From the NCBI GenBank assembly GCA_001516055.1, contig LOEZ01000076.1, forward strand, positions 1-47,968: a stretch of DNA of 47,968 nt, read 5' to 3'. The DNA is from Gracilibacter sp. BRH_c7a. Its GTDB lineage: Bacteria > Bacillota > Desulfitobacteriia > Desulfitobacteriales > Syntrophobotulaceae. Below the pieces are notes generated by a model. That model was given only the letters and a program-made list of their open reading frames with translations. It did not search any database and had not been told where the DNA came from. Each line of letters starts with the position of its first letter. The stretch's first letter is position 1. This document shows positions 24,824 to 40,502 of this stretch, in pieces. Made by a program: the position numbers and the translations under genes.

Positions 24824-25893
24824 GTACGCCCAGCATGAGCATTATCTATACGATGAAAGTCCTGAACGGGGGCTGGCGAGTGCATATCGTAGCTGAAAGC
24901 AAGGGTGTCTGTCGCGAGGCAGAATCTGAAGGAAGCTCTAAGCAAATGCTCGACTTGAGGTACACGAATCCAATTTGAGGCTACCATAGTCGGATGAATC
25001 TCCAGTACATGATTAAATCCAAAAACCGCCAAGTACTATGGTAAGTAAACTTGGGCAAGTGTGGGCAGAAAGATACGCTCTTATCTGGGGAGTCTGCAGG
25101 ATATGCGAATTTATTCGTAACCGTATCCGAGAGGGTACGCTGAACCTGCAGAAGTCAGCAGAGGCCATAGAAATCGGAAGGGCTGAACCTAAAGAAGAGA
25201 GGGAAATGATGCGTTCTAGTAATGGACAAAGAAAGCAGCCACTTCATACGAAGACTCATAGCATAAGGTAGTGGTGAAGCCACAAGGGGATGCTGGAGTG
25301 CCGAGTCCAATACCGGCACAAGTCGGAGAAAACTCTCGCGGAGACAAAACAACTTGTTGGAACGAATGCTCGAAAGAGAGAACTACTTGGGGCACTAAAG
25401 CAGGTGAGAAAGAACGGAGGGGCACCAGTGTAGATGGTATGAGAGTAGATGGACTACCAGACTACCTAAAAGCAAATTGGGAGGCAATAAAAGGCCAACT
25501 TCTAACGGGAGCCTACAGACCTAGCCCCGTTAAACGGGTGGAAATACCCAAACCTGGAGGCAGAGTTCGACTCTTAGGCATTCCAATCGTTCTGGATTGC
25601 CTTATCCAGCAGCACTACTGCAGGAAATGACCCCAATATTTGACTCTGAATTTTCCCCGTATAGCTACGGATTCAGACCGGCTACACACAAGATGGCGGC
25701 TTCACGGAGGGGGCCTTAGGAAATGTCTCGGAACACAAACAATAACCTCAACAATTCCTATTGGGAAAGTCAAGGGCTTAAGAGTTTACTTAATCGTTTT
25801 ATGGAACTTCGTCAATCTTTGGAAACGCCTAGTGCGGACTTGCATGCTAGGTGGTGTGAGAGGACGAGGGCTTGCCCCCCTCTCCTACTCGAT
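24824..25893 (+). mobile_element. group IIC intron, internally deleted
   Basis: The 5' end reads GTACGCCCAGCATGAGC and continues with landmarks of group IIC ribozymes such as the Oceanobacillus intron: GATGAAAGTCC, GCAAGGGTGTC, GAATCTGAAGGAAGC, then TTGAGGCTA and CAGAAGTCAGCAGA. The 3' end keeps a domain V-like hairpin (about 25821-25853, GCCTAGTGCGG...GCTAGGTGG) and a domain VI-like hairpin (about 25855-25890) ending near CTACTCGAT. Total length is about 1.07 kb instead of the usual 1.9-2 kb, because most of the domain IV reverse transcriptase gene is missing. It sits immediately after a terminator-like hairpin. Confidence 0.8.
25208..25840 (+). pseudogene. ltrA: LtrA-type reverse transcriptase/maturase, broken
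   Basis: Fragments in different frames cover the N-terminus (MRSSNGQRKQPLHTKT; then VKPQGDAGVPSP), the RT0/RT1 region (TSVDGMRVDGLPDYL, ANWEAIKGQLLTGAYRPSPV, VEIPKPGG.VRLLGIP), a piece of RT2 after a frameshift (MTPIFDSEFSPYSYGFRP), and the extreme C-terminus (SYWESQGLKSLLNRFMELRQ). The catalytic YADD region and the maturase X domain are absent. The enzyme cannot be active. Confidence 0.85.
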
Positions 25894-26087
25894 TATTAAA
25901 TTCAATTAGCTATAACAAAACTATCTGTTTTGTCAACACTTGGACTCTAGAGAATCCAGAGGTGAACAAACATGTATGTATTTGTATTTTACTTATTTCT
26001 ACAATCTAATACATTTGGATACACCAATATGTATATCAGCTGCCTGTTGCACTCGGATATAACACTACCAACTTCAAGCTATTTCTG

Positions 26088-26099
26088 TACACCGCTGTA
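26088..26099. promoter_or_regulatory. candidate enhancer site TACA-N4-TGTA
   Basis: TACACCGCTGTA is centred about 63 bp upstream of the predicted transcription start. A looser TACA-N6-TGTA lies at 26020-26033, near -130. The same half-sites with 4-bp spacing occur upstream of the other two sigma-54 promoters. Confidence 0.4.
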
Positions 26100-26129
26100 A
26101 TAGTAACCTTTTTTTCTTAATTTAGTTAG

Positions 26130-26147
26130 TTGGCATAAAAGTTGCTT
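26130..26147 (+). promoter_or_regulatory. sigma-54 (-24/-12) promoter of the OFA carrier/CoA-transferase genes
   Basis: TTGGCATAAAAGTTGCTT has GG and GC separated by exactly 10 bases and matches TTGGCA-N6-TTGCW. The start would be near 26157. Confidence 0.8.
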
Positions 26148-26200
26148 ATTTAGATTAGCAGAAGCATTGTTAAATAAATCACGAAAAGAAAGGAGGTAGT

Positions 26201-26240
26201 ATGTAAATATATGGAAAGAAGGAGCGTGATAAGTAATTAA
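26201..26240 (+). promoter_or_regulatory. start-stop element and nine-codon upstream frame in the leader
   Basis: AAAGGAGG (26189-26196) is followed 4 bases later by ATGTAA, a start codon directly followed by a stop. A second ATG at 26211 opens a nine-residue frame (MERRSVISN). A ribosome would load here and stop about 60 bases before the carrier start. Confidence 0.4.
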
Positions 26241-26303
26241 CTAAATTCCATTCATGAAATTATTGTTAATATTAAAATTATTTAGTTTAGGAAGGTGATT
26301 TTT

Positions 26304-27590
26304 ATGAGTTCGGATCATAAAACCGGTGGGTTCCATTATGGCTTTCTTATTGTTGCAGCACTATGTCTAATGATGGCTACGACTGTAGGATTAGTCTTTA
26401 GTACTGCGGGTATCTTTTATACACCTGTGAGCACCGAATTAGGGGTTGGTAAAGGCACATTTGGTATGTATATCTCTATCCTTTTACTTGTCTGTGCCAT
26501 CGTCCTTACTTTTGCTGGCAAAGTGTTAGACCGTTTTAATGCCCGTTGGGTATTGTCTGGTTGTATCGCTCTAATTGGTGTTTGCTTTTTTGCAATGTCA
26601 AAGTTTACTTCAGTATTCCAGTTTTATGTAGCAGGTGCTTTTCTAGGTATATCGATTGCTTTTATTCTGTATCTTGCTGTACCAACAATGATTAATCGTT
26701 GGTTTAAAGAACGGGTTGGTTTCTTTATTGGGTTATGCGCTGCTTTTACAGGTATAGGCGGAATTATTTTTAATCCTGTAGGCGGATATATTATTGGCAC
26801 TTATGGATGGAGGACAGCTTATCTGGTTTGGGCTGTTATTGTTCTTTTCATAACCTTACCTCTTAATGCATTGATTCTTAGGAGTCATCCAAGTGATAAG
26901 GGATTAAAGCCTTTTGGGTATGACGCTTCAAAGGAAGGCCAGGCCACAGTCACTGCTTCTGCACCCTTGACTGGTGTTTCATACTCAACCGCGATCAAGA
27001 GCCCTGTATTCTATATCGTAGCTCTCTTCGCTTTTGCTGTAGCTTTTGTTACCAATGTTAACTTTTATCTTCCGTCATATGCTAGTTCTCTTGGATTGGC
27101 TGCAACGATTGGCGCTACTATTGCTTCTGCCAGTATGTTTGGACAGTTGATCGGTAAGATTGTTTTGGGTTATGCCAATGATAAAAGCATTATTAAGGGC
27201 ATGATTGTCTGTTTCGGAGGCGGAATTTTGGGTATGGGGCTACTAATGTTCTTTGGTTCAGTAGGTGTTTGGGTTGTTCTGCTGGGCGGTTTCCTGTATG
27301 GCATCAGCTATGCCGGTGTTATGGTTCAAACCCCAATGACAATCAAAAAAGTATTTGGTAACCGCGATTATAGTCAGATCAATTCCAACATTTCCATCGT
27401 AGCAGCTGCAAGCTCAATGATTGGATCTTCTGCTTGGGGCTTTATTATTGATTCTACAGGGGGGTATGTTGCTACGCTATCTATAGCTTGCGGAATCCTC
27501 GTTGCAGCTTTCCTCTTGGGTCTTGCTGCTTTAAACCTTAGCAAAAATTTTGTTCATACTCCGGCTGATAATACAAAAGCGGCCAAATAG
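26304..27590 (+). CDS. OFA-type MFS carrier (carboxylate transporter)
   Basis: About 428 residues from ATG 26304, chosen because GGAAGGTG (26290-26297) precedes it by 6 bases; a GTG at 26295 lies inside the ribosome site. Twelve hydrophobic segments are expected. The hallmark loops of the oxalate/formate antiporter family appear: GKVLDRFNARWVL after helix 2, RWFKERVGFFIGLCAAFTGIG in helices 4-5, and IKKVFGNRDYSQINS in the second half. It is clearly a paralogue of the minus-strand carrier at 35233-36525. It probably imports the carboxylic acid used by this cluster, perhaps in exchange for the product. It is the first gene after the sigma-54 promoter at 26130. Confidence 0.82.
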   Translation: MSSDHKTGGFHYGFLIVAALCLMMATTVGLVFSTAGIFYTPVSTELGVGKGTFGMYISILLLVCAIVLTFAGKVLDRFNARWVLSGCIALIGVCFFAMSKFTSVFQFYVAGAFLGISIAFILYLAVPTMINRWFKERVGFFIGLCAAFTGIGGIIFNPVGGYIIGTYGWRTAYLVWAVIVLFITLPLNALILRSHPSDKGLKPFGYDASKEGQATVTASAPLTGVSYSTAIKSPVFYIVALFAFAVAFVTNVNFYLPSYASSLGLAATIGATIASASMFGQLIGKIVLGYANDKSIIKGMIVCFGGGILGMGLLMFFGSVGVWVVLLGGFLYGISYAGVMVQTPMTIKKVFGNRDYSQINSNISIVAAASSMIGSSAWGFIIDSTGGYVATLSIACGILVAAFLLGLAALNLSKNFVHTPADNTKAAK

Positions 27591-27611
27591 ACAATAACGG
27601 AGGAAAACAGA

Positions 27612-28676
27612 TTGCTTGCAGGAATTAAAATTATCGACTTTACGCGCTATTTTCCTGGTCCTGTTGCCACATTACGCTTAGCGGAACGAGGAGCAGAAGT
27701 CATCAAGATTGAAGAACCGACAGGTGATCCGGCACGATTCATGGATATGATCAATGGTGAAGAAGGATGTATCTTTCGTTCTCAAAACCGGGGTAAGAAA
27801 AGCGTAGCACTAGATTTAAAGAAAAATGACCAGCTTGAGAAAGCCCTGGAATTGATTCGTACAGCGGATGTGGTCATTGAGAGTTTTAGGCCGGGCGTAC
27901 CCAAAAAACTGGGGATTGACTATAGAAGTCTCATTGAAATCAACCCATCCTTAGTTTATTGCTCCTTGTCAGGTTTTGGACAAAACACGAGCATTTCGCA
28001 CTTAGGTGGACATGATCTAAATTATCTAGCCTTAAGTGGAGTCTTAGCACAATTGACAGATGCTCAAGGAAGACCTATCAAGCCAAACATTGCCATGGCT
28101 GATTTGTTAGGAGGCATAGTTGCCAGCGAAGAGATTCTAGCCGGCCTGGTCCAGCGAGAAAGAACGGGAAAAGGTGTATATCTCGATGTTTCCATTACAG
28201 AAACCATGCTTTCCTGGATGGGGCTTCATGTCTCGCACCAATCCGTAACAGGGGAAGAACACGGGATCAATGATCATGGAATCTCTTACTACATTTATGA
28301 GACGAAAGATCAGCGTTACATGACGATAGGAGCCATAGAGGATAAGTTCTGGAACAACTTCTGCAAAGCTGTAGAAAGAAAAGATTTAATTCAAGGTCAT
28401 AAGACGCAGCCTCATCCCGATAACCCTTACTATCAGAAAATGGTAAAGCTTTTCAAATCTCGCACTTTCAGTGAATGGACAGAATTTTCCACAAGAGTTG
28501 ACTGCTGTATGGCTCCAGTACTTCAAACAAGTGAACTCAAACACCAAGTACCTTTCCAAGAAAGACAGTTTATCGAGCATAAGTGGGGACTTGATTATGT
28601 AGCAACTAGCTATATGCAAGAAAAATCATTTTTAGATTTCCCCAATCCTTTCCCCAAACTAGGCGAACATAACTAG
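27612..28676 (+). CDS. CaiB/BaiF family III CoA-transferase
   Basis: The protein has 354 residues; TTG 27612 follows CGGAGG by about 7 bases. The N-terminal nucleotide-fold motif IKIIDFTRYFPGPVATLRLAERGAEVIKIEEP and the SRN-type block (FRSQNRGKKSVALDLK) are typical. ADLLGG (about residues 163-168) contains the Asp that would form the acyl-CoA anhydride intermediate. It is shorter than CaiB (405) and nearer the AMACR-like branch in length. It should move CoA from a product thioester to the incoming acid. It lies 21 bp after the carrier gene and is followed by a long hairpin terminator. Confidence 0.82.
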   Translation: MLAGIKIIDFTRYFPGPVATLRLAERGAEVIKIEEPTGDPARFMDMINGEEGCIFRSQNRGKKSVALDLKKNDQLEKALELIRTADVVIESFRPGVPKKLGIDYRSLIEINPSLVYCSLSGFGQNTSISHLGGHDLNYLALSGVLAQLTDAQGRPIKPNIAMADLLGGIVASEEILAGLVQRERTGKGVYLDVSITETMLSWMGLHVSHQSVTGEEHGINDHGISYYIYETKDQRYMTIGAIEDKFWNNFCKAVERKDLIQGHKTQPHPDNPYYQKMVKLFKSRTFSEWTEFSTRVDCCMAPVLQTSELKHQVPFQERQFIEHKWGLDYVATSYMQEKSFLDFPNPFPKLGEHN

Positions 28677-28681
28677 TCATG

Positions 28682-28747
28682 AATGCCCCTTCAGTTATAT
28701 ATAAATATCACAATCAAGCTTCAGTTCTGAAGGGGCATTATCCTTTT
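28682..28747 (+). terminator. terminator/attenuator between CoA-transferase and acyl-CoA dehydrogenase genes
   Basis: AATGCCCCTTCAG (28682-28694) is perfectly complementary to CTGAAGGGGCATT (28727-28739) around 32 bases, then ATCCTTTTT. It lies between genes of one pathway, so some readthrough or a second promoter near 28750-28790 must express the downstream genes; no -24/-12 site is present there. Confidence 0.75.
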
Positions 28748-28807
28748 TGAAAATAATGTTCAACAATTAAATTATATGTTAATAAAAACTTTAGAAGGAG
28801 AATGAAT

Positions 28808-29959
28808 ATGGATTTTAGATTTACTGAGGAACAAGAATTATTAGTCGAAAGCTTAAGAGAATTCATGTCAAGAGAAGTAACAGAAGAGGATATTAAGACT
28901 TTTTATCAAGAAGGTGCTGTTTCTGAGAAATTCTCCAAAGCATTTATTGAAGCAGGTTTTGGTTTCTTAGGAATTCCAGAAGAGTACGGCGGTACACCGG
29001 CAGACGTCACAACCTTGATGCTGGTCGGAGAAGAATTAACCAGACAATCAGCCGCTGTATTTCCTTTCATGTCCAATATCCTCAACATGTTTGATATGGT
29101 GGAATTCGGCAGACCCGATCAGATTATGACAATGATGGAGATCTATAAGCAAACTGGAAAACCAGCTTTTTCCTTAGCAATTTCCGAACCTCAGGGGGGA
29201 TCGGACAACAGCGCCATGACCACTGTCGCCACCCATAAAAACGGAAAGGTATACCTGAACGGTGCAAAAACATGGGTTACCCACGGTAATGTAGCACCAT
29301 GGACCTTGGTGGTCTGCAAAGAAGAGTCTCCTGAACTCACCAACAAAAATATGTCTATGTATTTATTCGCAGCCGATACACCAGGTGTGAAGTTCTCTCA
29401 GCTTCATAAGATTGGCCAGACAAGCACAACCTTCTGCGAGATGTATCTGGACAACGTAGAAATTGATGAAAGTGCTCTATTAGGCGAAAAAGACAAAGGG
29501 TTTCTTCAGCTGATGAAAAACTTTGAAGTGGAACGTCTTTTAATCGCTTCTCAATCTCTGGGTTTGGCCAAAGCAGCTATGGATGATGCTGCTGCATATG
29601 CCAGTGAAAGAATCCAGTTCGGTAAGCCTATCGGTAACCAGCAGATGATCCAACAAATGCTTACGGATATGGAAATTAAAATCAAGAACATGCACAACCT
29701 GCTCTATGAAGCTACCTGGAGACATGATAACGGTCTTCCTATTAAGCTTGAGTCCGCGCTGGTTAAGCGGTATTGCGGTATGACCGCTACCGAAGTTTGC
29801 TCGGACGCCATTCAAATCTTTGGGGGTCTGGGCTATACCACAGAAACCCGTGTCTCCCGTGCTTGGCAGGATGCCAGAGGATGGCAGATTGCAGGCGGAA
29901 CAGATCAAATTATGGTTCATATTGCTGGCAGAGAAGTTCTTAAAAAATACAAAAAGTAA
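28808..29959 (+). CDS. acyl-CoA dehydrogenase/reductase, CaiA-like
   Basis: About 383 residues from ATG 28808 (the ATG at 28802 is too close to AGAAGGAG). The full acyl-CoA dehydrogenase fold is seen: N-terminal helices (FTEEQELLVESLREFM), LGIPEEYGG, FAD-binding SEPQGGSDNSAM and GAKTWVTHG strands, and C-terminal ERIQFGKPIGNQQMIQ, QIFGGLGYTTE and RAWQDARGWQIAGGTDQIM. Length and C-terminus resemble CaiA (crotonobetainyl-CoA reductase), which runs as a reductase in anaerobes. A conserved Gly/Thr at the usual catalytic-Glu region (AGGTDQI) hints that the base may be placed elsewhere. It is next to etfBA and fixCX-like genes that would supply electrons. Confidence 0.85.
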   Translation: MDFRFTEEQELLVESLREFMSREVTEEDIKTFYQEGAVSEKFSKAFIEAGFGFLGIPEEYGGTPADVTTLMLVGEELTRQSAAVFPFMSNILNMFDMVEFGRPDQIMTMMEIYKQTGKPAFSLAISEPQGGSDNSAMTTVATHKNGKVYLNGAKTWVTHGNVAPWTLVVCKEESPELTNKNMSMYLFAADTPGVKFSQLHKIGQTSTTFCEMYLDNVEIDESALLGEKDKGFLQLMKNFEVERLLIASQSLGLAKAAMDDAAAYASERIQFGKPIGNQQMIQQMLTDMEIKIKNMHNLLYEATWRHDNGLPIKLESALVKRYCGMTATEVCSDAIQIFGGLGYTTETRVSRAWQDARGWQIAGGTDQIMVHIAGREVLKKYKK

Positions 29960-30010
29960 ACGGCCGAATTCGCTTAAAATTCAAGTTTCATGTAGAACAG
30001 GACTTATCAG

Positions 30011-30047
30011 GAGCAGATAAAATGAAGGTTATTCAGATTATCTGCTC
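30011..30047. repeat. intra-operon hairpin upstream of etfB
   Basis: GAGCAGATAA (30011-30020) and TTATCTGCTC (30038-30047) are perfect complements around 17 bases in the 133-bp gap before etfB. No T run follows; RNA processing or stability is more likely than termination. Confidence 0.5.
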
Positions 30048-30092
30048 TATACCAAAAAATCACTAAATTATGGCATATATAGAGGTGTAAAA

Positions 30093-30863
30093 ATGAACAT
30101 TATTTCATGTTTTAAAGTAGTACCTGATGAACAGGATATTACAATCAAACCGAATAGAGATATCTCTTTTGAGAAAGCACCGATGACAATCAGTGCCTAT
30201 GACTTAAACTGTATCGAAGCCGGTGCACAGCTGGCGGAGGCCTTTGAGGGCAATCTGATTGGCGTTAGTATCGGTGCGAAAAAGATTGATGATTCAAAGT
30301 TAAAGAAAAATGTGCTATCTAGAGGACCCGAAAGCATCTTAATGGTGGCAGACGATTTCTTGGAGGACTTAGATACCTACCAGACTGCTAATGCTTTGAA
30401 GGCTGCTATCCAAAAGGTTGGAGAGTTTGACCTGATTCTATGTGGAGAAGGATCAGCAGACCTGTATGCTCAACAAGTGGGAGCCCAATTGGGCCAGCTA
30501 CTCAACGTACCTGTCATCAATAGTGTCAATAAGATAGCACTCATGGAAGGTAAAGTGATCGTTGAACGCTCACTAGAGGACGAAGTAGAAACCATAGAAA
30601 TACCTCTCCCTGCAGTCATATCTGTTACCTCAGATATTAACCTGCCTCGTATCCCTAGTATGAAGCAAATCCTGGCTGCTGGTAAGAAGTCAGCCACCAT
30701 TTTAAGTGCGCTAGACGTGGGAATCGGAGATTTCGGTGCAACGCTCCAAGTCATTGAAACCAAAGCACCCGAACAAAAGGAAAGAAAGAAAGATATTATT
30801 CAAGGAGATTCTGACGAAGCGATTAAGTCATTCATAACTAAAATTAACAAAGTATTAAAGTAA
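30093..30863 (+). CDS. fixA: electron-transfer flavoprotein beta subunit (FixA-like)
   Basis: This 256-residue protein has the EtfB/FixA fold: MNIISCFKVVPDEQDI start, SAYDLNCIEAGAQL, the adenosine-binding DLILCGEGSADLYAQQVGAQLGQLL block (about 111-135) and a C-terminal arm after PRIPSMKQILAAGKK that contacts the alpha subunit. With FixB-, FixC- and FixX-like genes following, it should be part of a FixABCX complex that links NADH or another donor to the acyl-CoA dehydrogenase, possibly by flavin-based electron bifurcation. Confidence 0.85.
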   Translation: MNIISCFKVVPDEQDITIKPNRDISFEKAPMTISAYDLNCIEAGAQLAEAFEGNLIGVSIGAKKIDDSKLKKNVLSRGPESILMVADDFLEDLDTYQTANALKAAIQKVGEFDLILCGEGSADLYAQQVGAQLGQLLNVPVINSVNKIALMEGKVIVERSLEDEVETIEIPLPAVISVTSDINLPRIPSMKQILAAGKKSATILSALDVGIGDFGATLQVIETKAPEQKERKKDIIQGDSDEAIKSFITKINKVLK

Positions 30864-30881
30864 AAGGGCAGGTGGAATAGA

Positions 30882-31781
30882 ATGAAAGTGTTCGTATTTA
30901 CAGAGAAGGTGAAAAGTCTTTTGGAATTATGTCAAGGTGCCCGTCAAATAGGGGAACGCGTTGAAGCAATAATTATACAGAGCCAAGATAATCAAGATAA
31001 TGGAGCAGCGGATAAAGTGTGGAGCATTCCAATGCAGGATGGAGTTATGCTTGAGGACTATACAGAGACGCTTGCAGCACTGCTGGAACGGGAAAAACCT
31101 GACCTTTTGCTTATCGAGCCAAGCAAAAGATGCAAGTTAATTGCAGGTCGGCTTGCAGCTATTTTCGAAACCAGCGTAATGACGGATCTGATCGAACTGA
31201 CCAAAGAAGGTGAAGGCAGGCACTTAGTTTATGGAGGAGCGGCTATTCGTAAAGAGAAGTCAAATAATAGTCTGTCCATTGCTACGGTCGGGCCAGGCGT
31301 ATTGCAGGGAACTGGAGAGGCCGGTAAAGGAGAGACAGAAATTTTCCCATTTGTTGAGCCGAGTAATAAAATGAAAGTCATTAACATAGTCCAAAAAACG
31401 AAATCCAGCGTTGACTTGCCCAACGCCAAGCGGGTAGTCGGGGTAGGCCGCGGGATTGCCAAAGAAGAAGATCTTGGGATGATCAGGGAACTGGCAGAAG
31501 TAATAGATGCTGAAGTCGGATGCTCCCGTCCTATAGCTGAAGCAGAAAGATGGATGCCGAAGGAAACGTATATCGGTGTTTCAGGCTTAATGCTATCCCC
31601 GGAGGTTTATGTAGCTATTGGCATTTCCGGACAGGTTCAGCACACCGTTGGAATGAACAGATCTAAAGTTGTTATTGCCATTAATAAAGATAAAAATGCA
31701 GCGATCTTTGGACAGGCAGATTATGGAATCGTTGGAGATTTATATAAAGTAGTTCCAGCTTTAGTCGATCAGTTGAAGTAA
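30882..31781 (+). CDS. fixB: electron-transfer flavoprotein alpha subunit (FixB-like)
   Basis: This 299-residue protein lies 18 bp after the beta subunit gene. The C-terminal FAD domain is typical: VGVGRGIAKEEDLGMIRELA, EVGCSRPIAEAERWMP, YIGVSGLMLSPEVYVAIGIS, GQVQHTVGMN and AIFGQADYGIVGDLYKVVP. The N-terminal domain is somewhat shorter than in many FixB proteins. It binds FAD and docks to the dehydrogenase. Confidence 0.87.
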   Translation: MKVFVFTEKVKSLLELCQGARQIGERVEAIIIQSQDNQDNGAADKVWSIPMQDGVMLEDYTETLAALLEREKPDLLLIEPSKRCKLIAGRLAAIFETSVMTDLIELTKEGEGRHLVYGGAAIRKEKSNNSLSIATVGPGVLQGTGEAGKGETEIFPFVEPSNKMKVINIVQKTKSSVDLPNAKRVVGVGRGIAKEEDLGMIRELAEVIDAEVGCSRPIAEAERWMPKETYIGVSGLMLSPEVYVAIGISGQVQHTVGMNRSKVVIAINKDKNAAIFGQADYGIVGDLYKVVPALVDQLK

Positions 31782-31798
31782 AAGCAATGTGGTATAAA

Positions 31799-31833
31799 AG
31801 AGGTGGAAGAGAAGAAATTGATTTTCCACCTCT
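31799..31833. repeat. intra-operon hairpin between etfA and fixC
   Basis: AGAGGTGGAA (31799-31808) and TTCCACCTCT (31824-31833) are perfect complements around 15 bases. No T run follows. It may set the relative expression of the Etf and FixCX parts. Confidence 0.5.
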
Positions 31834-31863
31834 CCATAATGGAAGAAAGAAAGGAAGTAATCA

Positions 31864-33156
31864 ATGTCAGATGATAGATTTGATGCCATTATTGTTGGCG
31901 GAGGAATTGCCGGAACTGTAACCGCTTACTTACTGGCCAAAGAAGGGCTAGAAGTGATGCTAGTTGAAAGGGGAAACTACTCGGGGAGCAAGAATGTAAC
32001 AGGTGGACGTATTTACAGCCACAGCCTGGAAAAAATTATCCCTGACTTTGCACAGGAAGCACCGGTTGAACGGAAGATTACGCGCGAAAAAATTAGTCTT
32101 ATGACGGACGACAGCAATGTAACCATTGATTTTAGTTCAACACGTTTAGGACAACAAGGGAGTGATTCTTACTCCGTATTAAGAGGTGCTTTTGATCAGT
32201 GGTTAGCTGGTAAAGCTGAAGATGCTGGGGTGCAAATGGTTACTGGAATCCGTGTGGATAACCTGATTGTCAGAGAAGGGAAAGTATGCGGAATTGTTGC
32301 AGGAGAAGATGAGATGGAAGCCAATATAACCATCCTTGCTGATGGAGTGAATTCCCTCCTGGCACAAAAGTTAGGTTATCGGGGAGAATTATCACCTCAT
32401 CAAGTAGCCGTCGGTGTGAAAGAAATCATCGAACTTCCCTCGGAAGTGATTGATGATCGTTTTAACTGCAAGGATGGGGAAGGAACCTCATGGTTATTTG
32501 CCGGGACCCCATCAGCAGGAAAGGTTGGAGGAGGATTCATTTATACCAATAAAGCAAGTATTTCTCTAGGTGTGGTCTGTACGTTATGTGAATTAATTAA
32601 AGCTAATAAGACAATACCTCAAATGTTAGAAGATTTTAAGAGCCATCCTTCGATTGAGCCGCTGCTCAAAGGTGGAAAAATGATTGAATATTCCGGTCAT
32701 CTGGTTCCGGAGGGCGGACTTCATATGGTGCCTAAAATCATCGGGGATGGGGTGCTTATCGTCGGGGATGCAGCCGGATTCTGTATTAACTTAGGATATG
32801 CTGTGCGAGGGATGGACTTTGCTGTTGGTTCAGCAGAATGCGCAGCGAGAGCAGTTCTTAAAGCCAAGGAGACTAAAAACTATAGTGCCGAGTTCCTTCA
32901 ATGCTATCAATCCTTCCTGGATGATAGTTTTGTAATGAAAGATTTGAAGCATTACAAAAATTTTCCGCACTTCCTAGAGGAGACCCCAAGAATTTTCGAT
33001 GGATATCCGGGCATGGCTGCAGATATGATGACGGATCTATTTGTTGTTACGGGTAATCCCCCCCAATCCATGACGAGGATGATGATGAAGCATGTGAAAC
33101 AAATTGGATTACTCAATATTGCTAAGGATGGCTGGAAAGGAGTGCGTTCGCTATGA
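31864..33156 (+). CDS. fixC: FixC-like FAD-dependent dehydrogenase (ETF:quinone oxidoreductase family)
   Basis: This 430-residue protein opens with a Rossmann FAD motif DAIIVGGGIAGTVTAYLLAK (about 7-26). YSVLRGAFDQWLAGKAEDAG, the DGVNSLLAQKLG block and the VLIVGDAAGFCINLGYAVRG segment (about 298-317) are the family features. It lacks the C-terminal ferredoxin domain of full ETF-QO; that part is the separate fixX-like gene, whose start overlaps this stop by 4 bases. It should bridge the Etf and quinone or ferredoxin, as in FixABCX. Confidence 0.87.
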   Translation: MSDDRFDAIIVGGGIAGTVTAYLLAKEGLEVMLVERGNYSGSKNVTGGRIYSHSLEKIIPDFAQEAPVERKITREKISLMTDDSNVTIDFSSTRLGQQGSDSYSVLRGAFDQWLAGKAEDAGVQMVTGIRVDNLIVREGKVCGIVAGEDEMEANITILADGVNSLLAQKLGYRGELSPHQVAVGVKEIIELPSEVIDDRFNCKDGEGTSWLFAGTPSAGKVGGGFIYTNKASISLGVVCTLCELIKANKTIPQMLEDFKSHPSIEPLLKGGKMIEYSGHLVPEGGLHMVPKIIGDGVLIVGDAAGFCINLGYAVRGMDFAVGSAECAARAVLKAKETKNYSAEFLQCYQSFLDDSFVMKDLKHYKNFPHFLEETPRIFDGYPGMAADMMTDLFVVTGNPPQSMTRMMMKHVKQIGLLNIAKDGWKGVRSL

Positions 33157-33449
33157 GAATTGTCAATACGCTAAATGTAGATCATAAACTTGGAATTAAT
33201 AAATTCCATGTAGATGAAGATAATGCCCATATAACCTTAAAAGAAGAGAACATCGACATGGAGGAATATCAGAAATTAGTGATCGCTTGTCCTGCTGGCT
33301 TATACAAAGTAGATGAGAACTGCAGTGTTCAATTTGACTACGCCGGATGTTTAGAGTGTGGTACCTGTCGTATACTATGCGGTAGAACAATCTTAGAAAA
33401 ATGGGAATTTCCACAGGGAACCATGGGGATAGAATTCAGATTCGGGTAA
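33153..33449 (+). CDS. fixX: FixX-like ferredoxin
   Basis: The protein has 98 residues. ACPAGLY (C46) and CLECGTCRILC (C66, C69, C72, C76) are the FixX/ETF-QO-type iron-sulfur pattern for one [4Fe-4S] cluster, with C46 also conserved. The GTMGIEFRFG C-terminus is typical. The ATG overlaps the fixC stop, giving tight coupling and a 1:1 complex. Confidence 0.87.
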   Translation: MRIVNTLNVDHKLGINKFHVDEDNAHITLKEENIDMEEYQKLVIACPAGLYKVDENCSVQFDYAGCLECGTCRILCGRTILEKWEFPQGTMGIEFRFG

Positions 33450-33475
33450 TCAAACGACTAAGGAGGTAAGTTATA

Positions 33476-35017
33476 ATGGATAAAGTGGAAACCTTCAATG
33501 GTCTATTGGATTACTGGGGAGAAAAAACGCCAGAAAAAGAAGTTATATTTGATGGGCTTAGGAGAATGAGCTACGGAGAGTTGAATCGTGAGACCCAGCA
33601 TTTAGCAGCAGCCTTATCTTTTTTGGGCATTGAAAAAGGGGATAGAGTTCTAGCCATACTGCCAAACTGGCATGAATTTATCACTATCTTTTTCGCAGTT
33701 GCGAAAATTGGTGCAATTCTTGTTCCGTGTAATATGTCTTTGAGCAATAGGGAATTGAAAGATCGATTTGATTTGACTCGCCCTAAACTAACGTTTGTTT
33801 CCAGCCACGATCAATTGATGTGGCTGGAAACAAACGAGGAATTAACAAAATTTATTACAGTTCGGTTTGAAAAGAATCATTACTTTATGTATTCAGAAGT
33901 GCTGGCATTTGGGAATAAACACATCAATCCAACCGTCATGACTGATTCTTACTTGGATTATCAAGAAGATGTAATTGCTCTTATCTTTACATCTGGAACG
34001 ACGGGAATCCCGAAAGGAGTAGGACTGACAGGGTATAGTCTTATAAAGACAGCTGTCAGCATCGGTCAGCGTTTAACGTGTACACAACATGATGTTTTTC
34101 TTGTACCGCTTCCATGTACGCATTTATTTGGAATTGTAACAGGAATAATTGCCCCCATATATTTTGGGGCAAGAATAGTCATTATGGAAAAATACAATTC
34201 ACAGGAAGCATTACGGTTGATAGAAAAGGAACAGATCACTGTTCATCATGGTGTACCTACAATGTTTGTCCGTGAATTGGGAGAATACAAATACTTTCCA
34301 GTCAACGTTTCATCATTAAGAACGGGTATCGTGGCAGGTTCAGTTTGTTCAGAAGAAATTATGAAGAAAGTTAATACAAATTTTAAATTTGATCTTATGG
34401 TTGCTTATGGACTCACAGAATTTGTGGGGGTTTCCATGACAAGTCTGGATGACAGTCTAGAACATAGATTTAAGACTGTTGGACGACCTTATGAAGGTAT
34501 ACAGATTAAGGTCGTTCATGAAAGCGGAAGAATTGCAGAAACCGGGGAAATAGGCGAGCTATATTGTAAGGGTTACGGTGTAATGAAAGGTTATTATAAA
34601 ATGCCATGCAAGACGAAGGAAGTACTGGATGAAGAGGGTTGGCTTCGCACAGGTGATTTGGGTAGTGTTGATGAACTCGGGTATATTAGAATAACTGCCA
34701 GAAAAAAAGAAGTCATCAACAGAGGAGGTTACAAGGTCTATCCCCGTGAAGTGGAAAACGTGTACTATGACCATCCTGATATCTTGGAAGTCTGTGTGAT
34801 TGGGGCTCCTCATGGCGAATTAGGGGAACAAACCATCGCCTATGTTCAATTAAAACAAGATTCTGGAGGAACACCGGAGCTGCTGCGGGAGTATGCTAAA
34901 GATAGAATAGCTAAATATAAAATCCCAGATCGCGTTGTATTGCTGGATAATATGCCAAAGTTGGGAAATGGAAAAATTGATAAAAAGTTCATAAACACTC
35001 TGTTATATCCAAAGTAA
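33476..35017 (+). CDS. acyl-CoA ligase (CaiC-like, ANL superfamily)
   Basis: This 513-residue protein has the ANL motifs in order: A3 FTSGTTGIPKGV (about 171-182), the MVAYGLTEF A5 block, GWLRTGDLGSVDELGYI (A7), RKKEVINRGGYKVYPREVE (A8) and the C-terminal NGKIDKKF with the catalytic Lys. It would activate the free acid with ATP and CoA to prime the cycle, after which the CoA-transferases can recycle CoA. AAGGAGGT precedes ATG 33476. It is the last gene of the plus-strand series and converges on the second carrier. Confidence 0.87.
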   Translation: MDKVETFNGLLDYWGEKTPEKEVIFDGLRRMSYGELNRETQHLAAALSFLGIEKGDRVLAILPNWHEFITIFFAVAKIGAILVPCNMSLSNRELKDRFDLTRPKLTFVSSHDQLMWLETNEELTKFITVRFEKNHYFMYSEVLAFGNKHINPTVMTDSYLDYQEDVIALIFTSGTTGIPKGVGLTGYSLIKTAVSIGQRLTCTQHDVFLVPLPCTHLFGIVTGIIAPIYFGARIVIMEKYNSQEALRLIEKEQITVHHGVPTMFVRELGEYKYFPVNVSSLRTGIVAGSVCSEEIMKKVNTNFKFDLMVAYGLTEFVGVSMTSLDDSLEHRFKTVGRPYEGIQIKVVHESGRIAETGEIGELYCKGYGVMKGYYKMPCKTKEVLDEEGWLRTGDLGSVDELGYIRITARKKEVINRGGYKVYPREVENVYYDHPDILEVCVIGAPHGELGEQTIAYVQLKQDSGGTPELLREYAKDRIAKYKIPDRVVLLDNMPKLGNGKIDKKFINTLLYPK

Positions 35018-35079
35018 ATTTTCCTTTTAATCTTTCTCTGTGAAGAATTTTAGTACTGCGTTTTTTTGTTTTAGGTAAT

Positions 35080-35132
35080 AATAAAGTTTAGGCTGCAGAA
35101 ATTATTTGATTTACTGCAGCTTAAACTTTATT
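35080..35132. terminator. bidirectional terminator between convergent genes
   Basis: Bases 35080-35098 pair with 35114-35132 over 19 positions with one G-T wobble, around a 15-base loop. AT-rich ends give T/A tracts on both strands. It separates the ligase gene from the minus-strand carrier gene. Confidence 0.8.
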
Positions 35133-35232
35133 GATCCGAAGAAGAACTATAAACTCAAACTCTATCTTCAAGTTCGCGTACTCAGCATAAGATAACCTAT
35201 GATGTTTATTTTACTAATAAATAATATAAATG

Positions 35233-36525
35233 TTATTGTGTGATGGATGTTGGGTTGGTTTCGTCAAATAGGATTCTTTTCCTTAAGGAGTAGGCTGTTA
35301 TACCAAAGATCGTAAAAGCTATGGCCAGCCCCATCACCATAAATAGCGGAATTATATAAGAACCGTTATTGAAATCAGCAATATATCCATACAGAGATTG
35401 GCCTATAGCAGATGCTGCTGCATAGAACATCATGACGATAGAATAGATTTGAGTGAAATAGCGCTCCCCAAATATCTTGCGGGTTAGCATCGGTGATTGT
35501 ACGGTTGCCTGTGCAAAACCAAAACCATAAAGGAAGGCACCAGCCAGGAAAAAAGATGCATTGTGCGTACCGATAAAGGTAATCATGCCAACCCCGAGGA
35601 GTCCAGAAATACCCGAAAAAAGGATTCCTCCAACGACGCTTTTATCATTAATCCAACCTAAGACAACCTTACCTACTAAGACACCAAACATACTAGCTGA
35701 ACCTACGGTGGATGCAACGACAGCACCTTGTCCAAGAGAGGTAACAATCGATGGATAATAGACATTAATGTCGGTATATAAAGCTACAGATGCTAAAAAA
35801 AGAAGAAGAATGATAAAAGCCGGAGTTTTGATAGCCTTTGAAACAGGTACTCCATTGAGCACTAAAGGTTTCATATTAGCTTGATTCTTAGAAATATCTG
35901 CAGAATCTGATTCACCATAGGCCTTTAGTCCTATATCAGATGGATAGCTTCTTATGAATAAGGCAACGAGGGGGAAAACAAGAAGAGCAATAATAAGACC
36001 AAAAGCTATGTAGGCTGACCTCCAACCCATAGTTGCAATGATGTAACCTCCGATAGGATTGAAAATAACTGCGCCAACGCCGGTGAAGGCCATACATAGA
36101 CCGATAAAAAATCCGGTTCTAACTTTAAACCAACGAGTAATCATCGTAGGAGTAGCAATATAAAGAAAAAATGCTTGGGAGATTCCCAGAAAAACTGCGC
36201 CAACATAGAATTGGTAGACACTTGTGTAGAGAGCCATGGAACCTACTGCAAGTGCGTTTATCAAGACAAAAGTAGATAATAGCTTACGGGCATCAAACTT
36301 GGAAAGCAACTGACCTGCAAATGGAAGAAAAAGCATAGCAGAAAAAGAAACAAATGTTAGGTACAGAGCTAACGATCCTCTCGGAACCCCAAATTCTTTT
36401 AGAATTGGGACAAAGAATATTCCTGCGGTATTCCAAGTGATGGAGGAAGTTAAACTCATCGCACAACAAGCTATTACAATTAAAAACCCGTGATGAAGAC
36501 GGTTTGAATTTTGTGTAGTACTCAT
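35233..36525 (-). CDS. OFA-type MFS carrier, second copy
   Basis: This 430-residue, twelve-helix protein is paralogous to the carrier at 26304-27590, sharing GQLLSKFDARKLLSTFV, RWFKVRTGFFIGLCMAFTG, FNPIGGYIIATMGWRSAYI and RKIFGERYFTQIYS. AAAGGGG precedes ATG 36525. It has its own sigma-54 promoter at 36697-36717 and two enhancer-like palindromes further upstream. Two related carriers around one pathway could have different roles (uptake and product exchange, or two substrates). Confidence 0.82.
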   Translation of the reverse strand: MSTTQNSNRLHHGFLIVIACCAMSLTSSITWNTAGIFFVPILKEFGVPRGSLALYLTFVSFSAMLFLPFAGQLLSKFDARKLLSTFVLINALAVGSMALYTSVYQFYVGAVFLGISQAFFLYIATPTMITRWFKVRTGFFIGLCMAFTGVGAVIFNPIGGYIIATMGWRSAYIAFGLIIALLVFPLVALFIRSYPSDIGLKAYGESDSADISKNQANMKPLVLNGVPVSKAIKTPAFIILLLFLASVALYTDINVYYPSIVTSLGQGAVVASTVGSASMFGVLVGKVVLGWINDKSVVGGILFSGISGLLGVGMITFIGTHNASFFLAGAFLYGFGFAQATVQSPMLTRKIFGERYFTQIYSIVMMFYAAASAIGQSLYGYIADFNNGSYIIPLFMVMGLAIAFTIFGITAYSLRKRILFDETNPTSITQ

Positions 36526-36619
36526 TGGAAACCCCTTTCATTTTGGTAAAAGCACATTCAAATTAAAAATAGTTCTGTTTGGAAGGTTTAGACTTAAAGC
36601 ATGTAACAAGTATCACATA

Positions 36620-36642
36620 TCATTTCATAAAAAAGCCTCCTT
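36620..36642 (-). promoter_or_regulatory. strong ribosome site with two-codon frame in the carrier-2 leader
   Basis: On the minus strand AAGGAGGC (36642-36635) is followed 7 bases later by ATG AAA TGA (36628-36620). CTCC four bases upstream of GGAG can fold over the ribosome site. The frame lies about 95 bases before the carrier start. Confidence 0.4.
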
Positions 36643-36696
36643 CTGGAGAAATAGAATTATTGAGTGAATTTTCGAATCTAGTATGTCATTTATTAT

Positions 36697-36717
36697 ATAA
36701 GCATTTACCATGCCAAC
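36697..36717 (-). promoter_or_regulatory. sigma-54 (-24/-12) promoter of carrier 2
   Basis: On the minus strand TTGGCATGGTAAATGCTTA has GG and GC separated by 10 bases. The -12 element reads ATGCT rather than TTGCW, a small deviation. Transcription would start near 36688, leaving a leader of about 160 bases. Confidence 0.7.
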
Positions 36718-36777
36718 TTTTAAATGCAGTATATATGTACATAGTCAGGTGGTATTAAATAGATCTTAACAATACAG

Positions 36778-36793
36778 TGTACAATATTGTACA
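36778..36793. promoter_or_regulatory. 16-bp perfect palindrome, candidate enhancer site
   Basis: TGTACAATATTGTACA is centred about 97 bp upstream of the predicted carrier-2 start, a usual enhancer distance. A single TGTACA also occurs at 36736-36741. Confidence 0.55.
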
Positions 36794-36813
36794 AATATGA
36801 ATTAGCAAGCATA

Positions 36814-36825
36814 TACACAATTGTA
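36814..36825. promoter_or_regulatory. second candidate enhancer site
   Basis: TACACAATTGTA repeats the TACA-N4-TGTA form 34 bp from the first palindrome, about three helical turns, so a regulator oligomer could bind both on one face. Confidence 0.5.
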
Positions 36826-36952
36826 CTACTAAATGTTTCGGGTTTGTTATGAGAAAAAGATATATGAATATGTATAAAACTATACTATAATGAAATTATT
36901 CACATTCATTTTAACTTTATATTTAGCAAATTTAAGGCTTGGGGTGTTTATT

Positions 36953-38929
36953 TTGGTAGAACACTATAATGAGGCACAAGTAAAGAAAAATAGGTTATCT
37001 TTTATTATTAAAGGAGAATTTTTTGCAGAGAATTTAAGAGAGGAAATTTTAGCCTCTTGGTTGAGATGCAAAGAATCAAATCTTGATCCAAAGGCCTCTA
37101 TGGTCGATCTCCCTCCTAATTTGTCAAAAGCGCAAAGTCAGCCTAATCCCATCATGTCTTTTCTGAGAGATGACATTCTACCTGATATTGTAGGATCCTT
37201 GTATCAACTATTAGAAAAATGTCAGGGCGCCTTATTTTGGGTATACAGCGATAGCTTAGTCGTTTTTTCCCAGAGGGGAGACAAGAAACTCCTGCAGGAA
37301 TTAAATTCTAAAAATATTGGTATAGGTACATGTTTATCAGAACAATACATAGGAACTACAGGGATTTCGCTTTCAAGCGGACCACATCAGGAATCGTGGG
37401 TTATTGGTCATGAACACTATTTGGACATGTTTACACCTTATGTAACCTATAGTTATTGTCAAGAAGATTTTTATGGACTGTCCTATGCATTTATCATATT
37501 GCCCCAAGAATCTTTTACACCTTTGTTTCTTGATTACATTAGACTATTCCATCAAGCTCGAACAAACACCATCATTTGTTATCGAAATAGATTAGAATCA
37601 GAATTGAAAGATGAATTATTTAGCCAGTTCTTTGAAATGAAAAATGAAGCGGTCATTTTTATAGATTCTTTCGGAAAAATTGTTGATGTGAACCAGAAGT
37701 TTACTGTGTGGTTTCAGCTAGAACTGACTAAAGTAAAGGACAGAGACCTTGTGGAATTGATTCCTGAGATGGAAAGAGTCCTTACCTGTTTAGAAACAGG
37801 TAAGAGAATAATCTCGGAAGAGGTTCAGTTACCAGAGTTACCGGCGCATTCGCAATTTGTAAGAATGGACGTTATACCAACGATCAAAGATCAAAAAATA
37901 ACCGGATTGATCGTTACTCTGATGGATAATAAGACGGTTCGCCAGAGGGTTAGTAAAATTTCTAATCAGGCATACTATACGTTTGACGAGATTATTGGGG
38001 AATCTAAGTCACTACTAGCGGCTAAACTAAGGGCCGTGAATGCGGCCAACAGCTCCAGCAATGTTATTATATCCGGGGAGAGCGGAACAGGAAAAGAACT
38101 TTTTGCTCATTCCATTCATAATGCAAGTCAACGTCGAGAAGGTCCCTTTGTTTCCATTAATTGTGCGGCTATACCTACAGAGTTAATAGCCAGCGAATTA
38201 TTCGGCTATGTGGAAGGTGCTTTTACCGGTGCCAGAAAAGGCGGATCAATGGGTAAGTTTGAATATGCCAATACGGGGACGATTTTCCTCGATGAAATAG
38301 GGGAAATGCCTATTCATGTTCAGACCATTTTGTTAAGGGTATTAGAAGAACGGACTGTAACCAGAATCGGAAGCAATGTTTCTACACCTATTGATGTTAG
38401 GTTAATATGTGCAACCAATAGAAATCTGCATAAAATGGTAAAAGATAGAACATTCCGTCTGGATTTATATTTTAGAATCAATGTTCTTCATATTCATTTA
38501 CCCCCATTAAGAGAGCGGATTACAGATATCCCAATTATTGTTGATTACTATTTGAATTATTTTAATTCATTCCTAAATAAGACGGTGAAAGAAATTTCGC
38601 CTGAAGCCATGGATTCTTTGATTAAAAATCCTTGGGAAGGTAATCTAAGGGAATTAAGAAACACGATTGAATGCGGTGTTAATAACGCAATTGGAGATGT
38701 ACTGGAACTTGAACACTTACCCAGAGATTACTTTGAAGATGATGATCTATCCATCACACAAACCGACAAAACTGCAGTTCTCACCGAAAATGATTTCACG
38801 TTAGAGGAAAAAAGAATAATATTGAACCTAATGATTAAGTATAACGGTAATAAATCTCAAGTCGCTCAAGACTTGGGGATGTCAAGAAGTACATTATATA
38901 GAAAATTGAAAGACTATAATCTGGCTTAA
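36953..38929 (+). CDS. sigma-54-dependent enhancer-binding regulator (PAS, AAA+, Fis)
   Basis: About 658 residues from TTG 36953, which follows GGGGTG (36941-36946); an ATG at 36890 overlaps the -10 box and is unlikely. The N-terminal third resembles the AcoR/RocR-like sensory region, with a PAS-like segment NEAVIFIDSFGKIVDVNQKF. The AAA+ core carries GESGTGKE (about 375-382), GAFTGA (about 422-427, the sigma-54 contact loop), FLDEIGEM (Walker B) and the arginine-finger region FRLDLYFRINV. The Fis-type helix-turn-helix (NKSQVAQDLGMSRSTLYRKL) ends the protein. It is the only such activator in the window and stands between the -24/-12 promoters it probably controls. The sensed signal is likely the pathway acid or its CoA ester. 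Confidence 0.88.
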   Translation: MVEHYNEAQVKKNRLSFIIKGEFFAENLREEILASWLRCKESNLDPKASMVDLPPNLSKAQSQPNPIMSFLRDDILPDIVGSLYQLLEKCQGALFWVYSDSLVVFSQRGDKKLLQELNSKNIGIGTCLSEQYIGTTGISLSSGPHQESWVIGHEHYLDMFTPYVTYSYCQEDFYGLSYAFIILPQESFTPLFLDYIRLFHQARTNTIICYRNRLESELKDELFSQFFEMKNEAVIFIDSFGKIVDVNQKFTVWFQLELTKVKDRDLVELIPEMERVLTCLETGKRIISEEVQLPELPAHSQFVRMDVIPTIKDQKITGLIVTLMDNKTVRQRVSKISNQAYYTFDEIIGESKSLLAAKLRAVNAANSSSNVIISGESGTGKELFAHSIHNASQRREGPFVSINCAAIPTELIASELFGYVEGAFTGARKGGSMGKFEYANTGTIFLDEIGEMPIHVQTILLRVLEERTVTRIGSNVSTPIDVRLICATNRNLHKMVKDRTFRLDLYFRINVLHIHLPPLRERITDIPIIVDYYLNYFNSFLNKTVKEISPEAMDSLIKNPWEGNLRELRNTIECGVNNAIGDVLELEHLPRDYFEDDDLSITQTDKTAVLTENDFTLEEKRIILNLMIKYNGNKSQVAQDLGMSRSTLYRKLKDYNLA

Positions 38930-39074: not shown

Positions 39075-40295
39075 TTAACAATTTGGATCCTGCTTCAGAA
39101 TATTGTTGGCATAGAGTTCTTGAATTTGCTCAGGGGAGTAACCAAGTTCTTCGAGAACATCTTCATTGTCTTTACCATAACTGGGAGCTGCTCTCCAGAC
39201 TTTGCCGGGATTGTTCTTTAGTCTTGGGGCGATAGCTGGAGCAATAAATTTTCCGCCTTCGAAAGCATCATATTCGACAAATACACCGCGTGCTTTATAG
39301 TGGGGATGGTCGTACATAGTTTGGTATGTCATGATAGCACTCGAAACAATTCCATGAGCATTCAGTTCCTTTTCGGCTTCCATCACTGTTCTTTCGCCAC
39401 AGAATTCTTCAAGTCGTTGATGTAATTTTTCTGCGCCAGGCGTTCCTTTAAATACGGCATATTTATCTGTTGGAAAATCAGGAGACCCAAACTCAAGACC
39501 GAATAAAGGCAATCCTTTTTTGAGGGTAAGCGTGCTTAAGAAAAAGGTATAAACATATCCATCTTTACATTTGTAAGGTTGACATCCGGCAAATGTGGGA
39601 CTGGAAGCACCTGAACGCTTTCTCTCAATCTTGTAATTCAGCCAGTCACTGGGAAAGCCGGCTTGAATCATGAGCAGGGCTTCAAATTGAGCACAATCGA
39701 TGCTTTCACCTTTACCAGTTTTTTGGGCATTAATATAAGCTGCAAGTGTTGCCCAAGAGGCTGTTAATCCGGCAACGTAATCGCCCATATATGCGGGTGC
39801 AGGAGCAGGCAGCCCATCGGGTTCACCGTTCATATTCATAAAGCCACTAAAGGCCTGGCCGATGGAATCGTACGATCCTCTGTTCAAATATTCAGAATCA
39901 CCAGTTTGTCCATAGCCCGAAACATGTGTGATAATCAGTTTTGGATTTACCTTCCATAATTCTTCGTCACCTAAACCTCTTTTATCCCATGTGCCTGCCT
40001 TGGAATTCTCCACAACAATGTCTGCTTCTTTAACTAACTTTAAAAATACTTCCTTGCCCTTAGGCTTTACAACATCTAAAACAACGGCTCTATGATTTCG
40101 ACGATCCTTATTCAGGTAGGACAAAGAGTCTGTAGTTCTAAATTGATCTTTGACGATGGGGCTTTCCACAAAAATCACATCAGCACCGAAATCGGCCATC
40201 ATGGCTGCTGCAAAAGGACCTGCTACTGATAAACCGCAGCTGATTACTTTAATTCCTGATAATGGACCAAACTTAGGGATCTCTGATCTTTTCAT
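39075..40295 (-). CDS. CaiB-like family III CoA-transferase, second copy
   Basis: This 406-residue protein has nearly the length of CaiB. Motifs: GPLSGIKVISCGLSVAGPFA, MMADFGADVIFVESP, NKDRRNHRAVVLDV, and YMGDYVAGLTASWATLAAY with the catalytic Asp. AATGGAGGTAGAAT precedes ATG 40295. It differs clearly from the 354-residue copy at 27612-28676, so the two probably act on different acyl pairs. It has its own sigma-54 promoter about 190 bp upstream. Confidence 0.85.
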   Translation of the reverse strand: MKRSEIPKFGPLSGIKVISCGLSVAGPFAAAMMADFGADVIFVESPIVKDQFRTTDSLSYLNKDRRNHRAVVLDVVKPKGKEVFLKLVKEADIVVENSKAGTWDKRGLGDEELWKVNPKLIITHVSGYGQTGDSEYLNRGSYDSIGQAFSGFMNMNGEPDGLPAPAPAYMGDYVAGLTASWATLAAYINAQKTGKGESIDCAQFEALLMIQAGFPSDWLNYKIERKRSGASSPTFAGCQPYKCKDGYVYTFFLSTLTLKKGLPLFGLEFGSPDFPTDKYAVFKGTPGAEKLHQRLEEFCGERTVMEAEKELNAHGIVSSAIMTYQTMYDHPHYKARGVFVEYDAFEGGKFIAPAIAPRLKNNPGKVWRAAPSYGKDNEDVLEELGYSPEQIQELYANNILKQDPNC

Positions 40296-40483
40296 ATTCT
40301 ACCTCCATTAAAATTTAAAAATATTTTACAGTAAAATAGTTTATGGTTAATCTTCACCTCTCTCGTAACTGTCTACTAATTCTTCTTCGTTGATTGATTT
40401 CATCACTTCAGTCAAAAAAAGATTTTTGCTTAGTAGGTAGTTTTGTTTTGGGTTTTTAACAATAATGGACACATTAAACTATA

Positions 40484-40502
40484 AGAGCAATTATTATGCC
40501 AA
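40484..40502 (-). promoter_or_regulatory. sigma-54 (-24/-12) promoter of CoA-transferase 2
   Basis: On the minus strand TTGGCATAATAATTGCTCT has GG and GC separated by 10 bases and a perfect TTGCT -12 element. The start would be near 40474. Confidence 0.8.

Follow-up and report, generated by a model that had tools for sequence, protein, structure and literature searches.

Strong Shine-Dalgarno sites that serve no gene in sigma-54-type leaders of two carrier genes in Gracilibacter sp. BRH_c7a: candidates for message stabilizers of the cry3A type

The stretch of DNA analyzed here, called the window, comprises 47,968 nucleotides (nt) from Gracilibacter sp. BRH_c7a (assembly GCA_001516055.1, contig LOEZ01000076.1, positions 1-47,968, forward strand) and encodes two MFS carriers, both of which adjoin a cai/fix-like gene set. 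Carrier 1 (P0001), the first gene of a cai/fix-like operon, is located at 26304-27590 on the plus strand and carrier 2 (P0002) at 35233-36525 on the minus strand, and the two proteins are 44% identical. In the leader of each of these two related transcription units a strong ribosome site was found that is distinct from the gene's own and that is followed by a start codon and a nearly immediate stop codon. An earlier note on this DNA had reported both the sites and the start-stop frames, ATG-TAA at 26201-26206 (+) and ATG-AAA-TGA at 36628-36620 (-), and these are present at exactly these positions, each after AAGGAGG. The evidence used throughout is the sequence itself: sigma-54-type promoters were called by pattern match, transcript starts were set from the promoter position, and all distances written as +n count from these presumed starts. 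As set out below, the start-stops are probably incidental and the Shine-Dalgarno (SD) word in front of them is probably the feature of these leaders.

The leader of the plus carrier follows the sigma-54-type promoter (-24/-12) of the carrier operon, TTGGCATAAAAGTTGCTTAT (26130-26149, +), which is an exact match to TTGGCAYNNNNNTTGCTTAT and would place the transcript start near 26157. At about +33 the leader contains the SD AGAAAGGAGGT (26187-26197, +), with AAAGGAGG at 26189-26196 and AAGGAGG at 26190-26196, which is an orphan, i.e., a leader AAGGAGG serving no open reading frame (ORF) of at least 40 amino acids, and which is proposed here as a 5' stabilizer similar to STAB-SD of the cry3A leader. 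Its computed pairing with the anti-SD amounts to -17.4 kcal/mol compared to -10.7 kcal/mol at the gene's own site, GGAAGGTG ahead of the ATG at 26304; the pairing energies of the two window leaders were computed with a canonical anti-SD. The ATG-TAA, judged incidental, follows AAGGAGG at a spacing of 4 nt, and its stop lies 97 nt upstream of the carrier start (26206 to 26304). The same leader carries a second, weaker SD-like hexamer, AAGGAG (26219-26224, +; anti-SD pairing -12.5), and a second ATG frame of nine codons.

The leader of the minus carrier has a similar organization. Its sigma-54-type promoter, TTGGCATGGTAAATGCTTAT (36716-36697, -), deviates by one mismatch, and the orphan SD AGAAGGAGG (36636-36644, -; AAGGAGG at 36642-36636), also proposed as a 5' stabilizer, is located at about +47. 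The computed pairing is -12.6 kcal/mol here and -11.8 kcal/mol at the gene's own site, GAAAGGGG ahead of the ATG at 36525. The ATG-AAA-TGA mini-frame follows at a spacing of 7 nt, its stop being 94 nt upstream of the carrier start (36620 to 36525).

Close relatives of both carriers were found in only one other genome, G012 (P0001 at E <= 1e-85 gave hits in 2 of 82 genomes of the class, the window's own and G012), which encodes one carrier 81% identical to P0002 (L042/L234) and one 50% identical to P0001 (L034/L236). As automatic alignments leave the SDs not exactly in register, their positions are given as distances from the promoter. In the leader of the P0002 ortholog a sigma-54-type site is followed by GAAAGGAGG at about +46, compared to +47 in the window, and then by ATTGCATAC, and no ATG-stop was found behind this leader SD. 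The leader of the P0001 relative contains AAGAAGGAGGTTTTGAACG 34 nt past its TTGC and, downstream of it, a second AAGGAGG, the two AAGGAGG words being 50 nt apart, and behind neither of the two was an ATG start-stop found. In the window's own genome, a leader on contig 64 carries GAAGGAGGTAAG at 44 nt from the promoter, exactly the distance in the plus leader, with no start codon at 3-14 nt behind it. The more distant carriers (L035-L041, L043-L046) were judged by eye only; L035, for example, shows a sigma-54-type site, an AGGAGG that belongs to the gene, and no leader start-stop. The comparison of orthologous leaders that the earlier note had proposed thus gave an SD in both G012 relatives and an ATG-stop behind it in neither (2/2 and 0/2), which on the side of the sequence is the outcome that the note had named as speaking against its proposal. 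What is shared among the related leaders is thus the SD, without the start-stop.

To what extent such sites occur elsewhere was analyzed with the pattern TTGGCAYNNNNNTTGC-N30-60-AAGGAGG in 73 genomes of the order. It was found at 113 places in 45 of the 73 genomes, while the pattern read backwards and the pattern with CCTCCTT replacing AAGGAGG gave 2 matches each. Inspection of the sequence behind all 113 matches assigned 59 of them to an ORF of at least 40 amino acids, leaving 54 orphans; grouping of alike leaders yielded 38 gene-site groups and 46 orphan groups. Behind 32 of the 54 orphans no ATG, GTG or TTG is present at 3-14 nt, and 52 of the 54 are followed within 400 nt by a plausible gene start with an SD-like word of its own. 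A T directly follows AAGGAGG in 22/54 orphans versus 3/59 gene sites, resulting in a longer match to the 16S tail, although 15 of the 59 gene sites form one family of alike leaders that inflates the count of A at this position. A like search with sigma-A-type promoters gave 36 hits, of which 30 were examined: 27 are ordinary gene sites, two are orphans and one is cut off by the contig end. The orphan share differs between the two promoter types with a Fisher P of 1e-4 if the contig-cut site is counted as orphan, and of 1.2e-5 if alike sigma-54-type leaders are grouped and sigma-A-type leaders are not.

A second set of leaders was assembled independently of any SD, starting from promoter-only matches in three genomes (n = 115; 28 in the own genome, 20 in G012 and 67 in G046), the promoter pattern for the own genome being one base looser than that for G012 and G046. 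A simple rule assigned a gene start in 102 of the 115 cases, L083 being without one, and the 57 leaders of 70-300 nt were kept, those shorter than 70 or longer than 300 nt being left out. Before this count L090, L098, L103 and L233 were removed because inspection by eye suggested that their promoters are false; of these, three fit the size range and have no SD, so that keeping them changes the result given next to 26/60. The minus leader is outside this set, its -12 box differing by one base. A strong internal SD hexamer, defined as AAGGAG, AGGAGG, GGAGGT or GAGGTG at a place other than the ribosome site of the gene, was found in 26/57 leaders (own genome 7/11, G012 3/6, G046 16/40), among them the plus leader, compared to 5.7 in shuffled leaders (largest of 300 shuffles: 13) and 3 on the reverse complement. 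Anti-SD pairing exceeds that of the leader's own shuffles at P < 0.05 in 25/57 leaders (60 shuffles each). In 16 of the 26 leaders the internal SD lies at +5 to +50. The leader match is stronger than the gene's own site in 21/26 (means -13.8 versus -10.9 kcal/mol), a comparison favored by two choices: the leaders were selected for a strong hexamer, and their best match was drawn from a longer stretch.

The start-stop frames behave differently from the SD in these counts. An ATG at 4-11 nt was found behind 6/54 orphans, with 5.7 expected from background windows of the same leaders, and behind 7/55 compared to 6.7 in shuffles if the minus leader of the window is added to the 54 orphans of the order. 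An ATG at this spacing with at most one sense codon before the stop occurs in 3/55 versus 0.83 in shuffles (P = 0.052), and two of these three are the cases picked in the earlier note, without which 1/53 remains. With at most four sense codons the count is 5/55 versus 2.1 (P = 0.050). In the comparison with background windows, frames of up to five codons occur in 4/54 where 1.1 would be expected, and frames of up to two codons in 2/54 versus 0. The mild excess of short frames comes from the two picked leaders together with three from other genomes that resemble each other by eye. These three, L060, L123 and L137, have short ATG frames of 4, 4 and 2 codons behind the leader SD, ATGAAAAAGGGTTAG in L060 and L123 and ATGAAATAG in L137, in which the start is kept and the stop shifts. 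By these counts the leader SD exceeds chance, and the start-stop hardly does so. The start-stop as a shared regulatory device, the part of the earlier note's proposal that made it a functional unit arisen twice, was accordingly rejected as the principal explanation, given its absence from both G012 leaders and an ATG frequency at background.

These data bear on the possibility that the frames are translated minigenes, i.e., that initiation at the ATG is followed by an immediate stop and that the gene behind is tuned or protected by a ribosome that pauses or re-initiates, which we regard as improbable. Among the gene sites of the order the start codon lies 6-10 nt from AAGGAGG in 50/59, with 7 nt being the commonest spacing (27/59); the minus mini-frame has exactly this modal spacing, so that real initiation is possible there, while the 4 nt of the plus leader is a distance of <=4 nt that occurs in only 3/59 gene sites. 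It is chiefly for the minus leader that a translated minigene is to be considered. The borderline excess of short frames and the three alike leaders of other genomes are in its favor, and there is a precedent in Escherichia coli: the two-codon mg2 of axe-txe likewise combines, within a leader, an SD with an ATG, one further codon and a stop, which is the arrangement at 36628-36620 (PMC8708949, excerpt). However, both the start and the stop of mg2 are needed for its effect, and it lies 15 nt before txe (PMC8708949, excerpt), whereas the window mini-frames are located 94-97 nt from the carrier starts and were not found in the relatives, neither start nor stop being kept in the leaders of G012. 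Because of these 94-97 nt short-range re-initiation was judged unlikely. A likeness also exists to eukaryotic upstream ORFs of the AUG-stop type, such as that of Arabidopsis NIP5;1, in which an ATG is followed immediately by a stop as at 26201-26206; these act on scanning ribosomes and by re-initiation (PMC5972666, excerpt), while the window leader is bacterial and SD-led and its frame is not kept.

We consider it probable that in both leaders the strong SD, and not the start-stop, is the element with a function, and that it acts most likely in the manner of the cry3A STAB-SD, the letters of which are GAAAGGAGG. According to this explanation, a 30S subunit would bind the leader SD without productive translation and would thereby block the 5'-to-3' exonuclease RNase J, as a result of which the long leader and the downstream operon would live longer; we infer the transcript start, the 30S binding, the RNase J block and the longer half-life from the sequence features described above. 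Two RNase J homologs are encoded in the genome (hits over the family cut-off), which makes such a block possible only. Both window leaders contain an SD-like word distinct from the gene's own SD, and both words pair by computation with the 3' end of 16S at the energies stated above. Taken together, a strong SD that lacks a usable start codon, its location early in a long leader and the RNase J homologs would amount to the anatomy of STAB-SD. In Bacillus thuringiensis cry3A, STAB-SD likewise resembles an SD, lies early in a long leader and is apart from the gene's ribosome site; it directs no initiation and is capable of interacting with the 16S 3' end, and the bound 30S subunit blocks RNase J1 (PMC4113751, excerpt), the site and its RNase J block being described also in PMC3997798 (excerpt). 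Sites like STAB-SD are present in further genes of Gram-positive bacteria and could be common (PMC4113751, excerpt). In contrast to cry3A, the sites reported here stand behind sigma-54-type promoters and near the presumed primary transcript start, a start codon happens to follow the SD in both window leaders, and the stabilization is proposed. A further precedent is the LEE4 esp leader of enterohaemorrhagic E. coli, in which a strong SD before a mini-ORF suffices to stabilize and translation of the mini-ORF is not needed (PMC8708949, excerpt), and this favors the SD over the start-stop; the protection there is from RNase E, whereas RNase J is proposed for the window leaders.

Several observations weigh against a STAB-SD-like stabilizer. 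STAB-SD directs no initiation, yet an ATG stands behind the SD in both window leaders, and the excess of frames with at most four sense codons points the same way. The minus leader SD is predicted to be mostly paired, and the pairwise alignment sets the SDs of the minus leader and of its ortholog a few columns apart. Behind 6/54 orphans a frame of 20-39 amino acids is present, so a few of them may serve small proteins, and outside the order, in 27 additional loci of the phylum, the orphan share is lower (7/27). In the set of 57, 31 long leaders have no strong internal SD, and in these 31 the gene's site is the stronger one on average (-11.0 versus -7.4 kcal/mol); ten of the 26 internal SDs lie beyond +50, and a control with reversed words gave 15/57, those purine words being partly SD-like. 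The selection behind the 21/26 comparison and the family of alike gene sites belong to the same side.

Two further explanations are each somewhat less probable than translation of the mini-frames. The leader SD could be part of a regulatory switch for expression of the carriers, either in a structure that pairs it with pyrimidine stretches or as a site recognized by an RNA-binding protein, for example CsrA with its GGA motif. Pairing of the SD with nearby pyrimidines is indeed predicted for the minus leader and for its ortholog (mean unpaired 0.10-0.13), but the SD of the plus leader is predicted to be open (0.73-0.90), the predicted folds of the compared leaders are not alike, a search of Rfam gave no structured-RNA match inside either leader at E <= 1, and the orphan words extend towards the 16S complement, all of which makes a switch quite unlikely. 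Equally doubtful is the absence of any function, the words being leftovers or purine tracts that AT-rich leaders contain by chance, for which the 31 leaders without such a word and the reversed-word control speak, but against which stand the 113 matches compared to 2 for the complement word with 54 of the 113 not being gene sites, the count of 26/57 compared to 5.7 in shuffles, and the SD kept in two related leaders.

A wider proposal can be put forward, albeit tentatively and with less confidence than for the two window leaders: throughout the order, long leaders that depend on sigma-54 may generally include orphan SDs near the front, where a parked 30S subunit would armor messages made on demand against RNase J and would couple the promoter type to the lifetime of the message.

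With respect to the surroundings, the description of both leaders as those of sigma-54-driven OFA carriers in the earlier note was borne out for the sigma-54-type promoters and holds loosely for the family label: transporter models for lactate, bile salts and oxalate/formate match both carriers, with all listed rows under the curated cut-offs. A scan of genome contigs with P0001 gave one distant, partial relative. A gene for a sigma-54 activator is located at 36890-38929 (PF00158 over cut-off), and the only Rfam match in 25900-37000, at 33791-33835, is under the gathering score. A third sigma-54-type promoter of the cluster (40483-40502, -; two mismatches to the longer pattern) lies upstream of an L-carnitine CoA-transferase-like gene (39075-40295, -), the family score of which is just under cut-off. 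The leader of this gene contains the SD-like hexamer GAGGTG at about +115 (40355-40360, -) without an ATG start-stop; the 95%-identical ortholog in G012 has AGGAGG at +117, which the DNA alignment puts out of register with GAGGTG. In 40290-40502 (-) a GTG frame runs from the internal SD-like word and by eye overlaps the ATG of the CoA-transferase-like gene. This frame into the gene start was dropped as a candidate, as it was not seen in the aligned leader of the 95%-identical ortholog. Upstream of the plus carrier promoter, at 24908-25183 (+), Group II intron domains were detected by two Rfam matches over cut-off, and the short ORF behind them (25271-25630) has no Pfam family at E <= 0.001; together these are perhaps an intron with a truncated protein. 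On contig 64 of the own genome, exact sigma-54-type sites (L093 at 4420 and L094 at 10529) are found upstream of genes that by eye resemble the window proteins encoded at 28802-29959 and 30093-30863, i.e., a second cai/fix-like set, and both leaders contain SD-like words away from the gene start.

A stabilizer of the STAB-SD type is a kind of element that is already known, and the new part is its frequency in the sigma-54-type leaders of this order; a limited literature search found no report linking STAB-SD-type sites to sigma-54-type leaders. The analysis yields a testable rule, namely that ribosome sites without a gene to serve are frequent in long sigma-54-type leaders of these bacteria. 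If these sites do stabilize the messages, this would extend the stabilizer known from cry3A and would help to explain how enough protein is obtained from tightly switched promoters.

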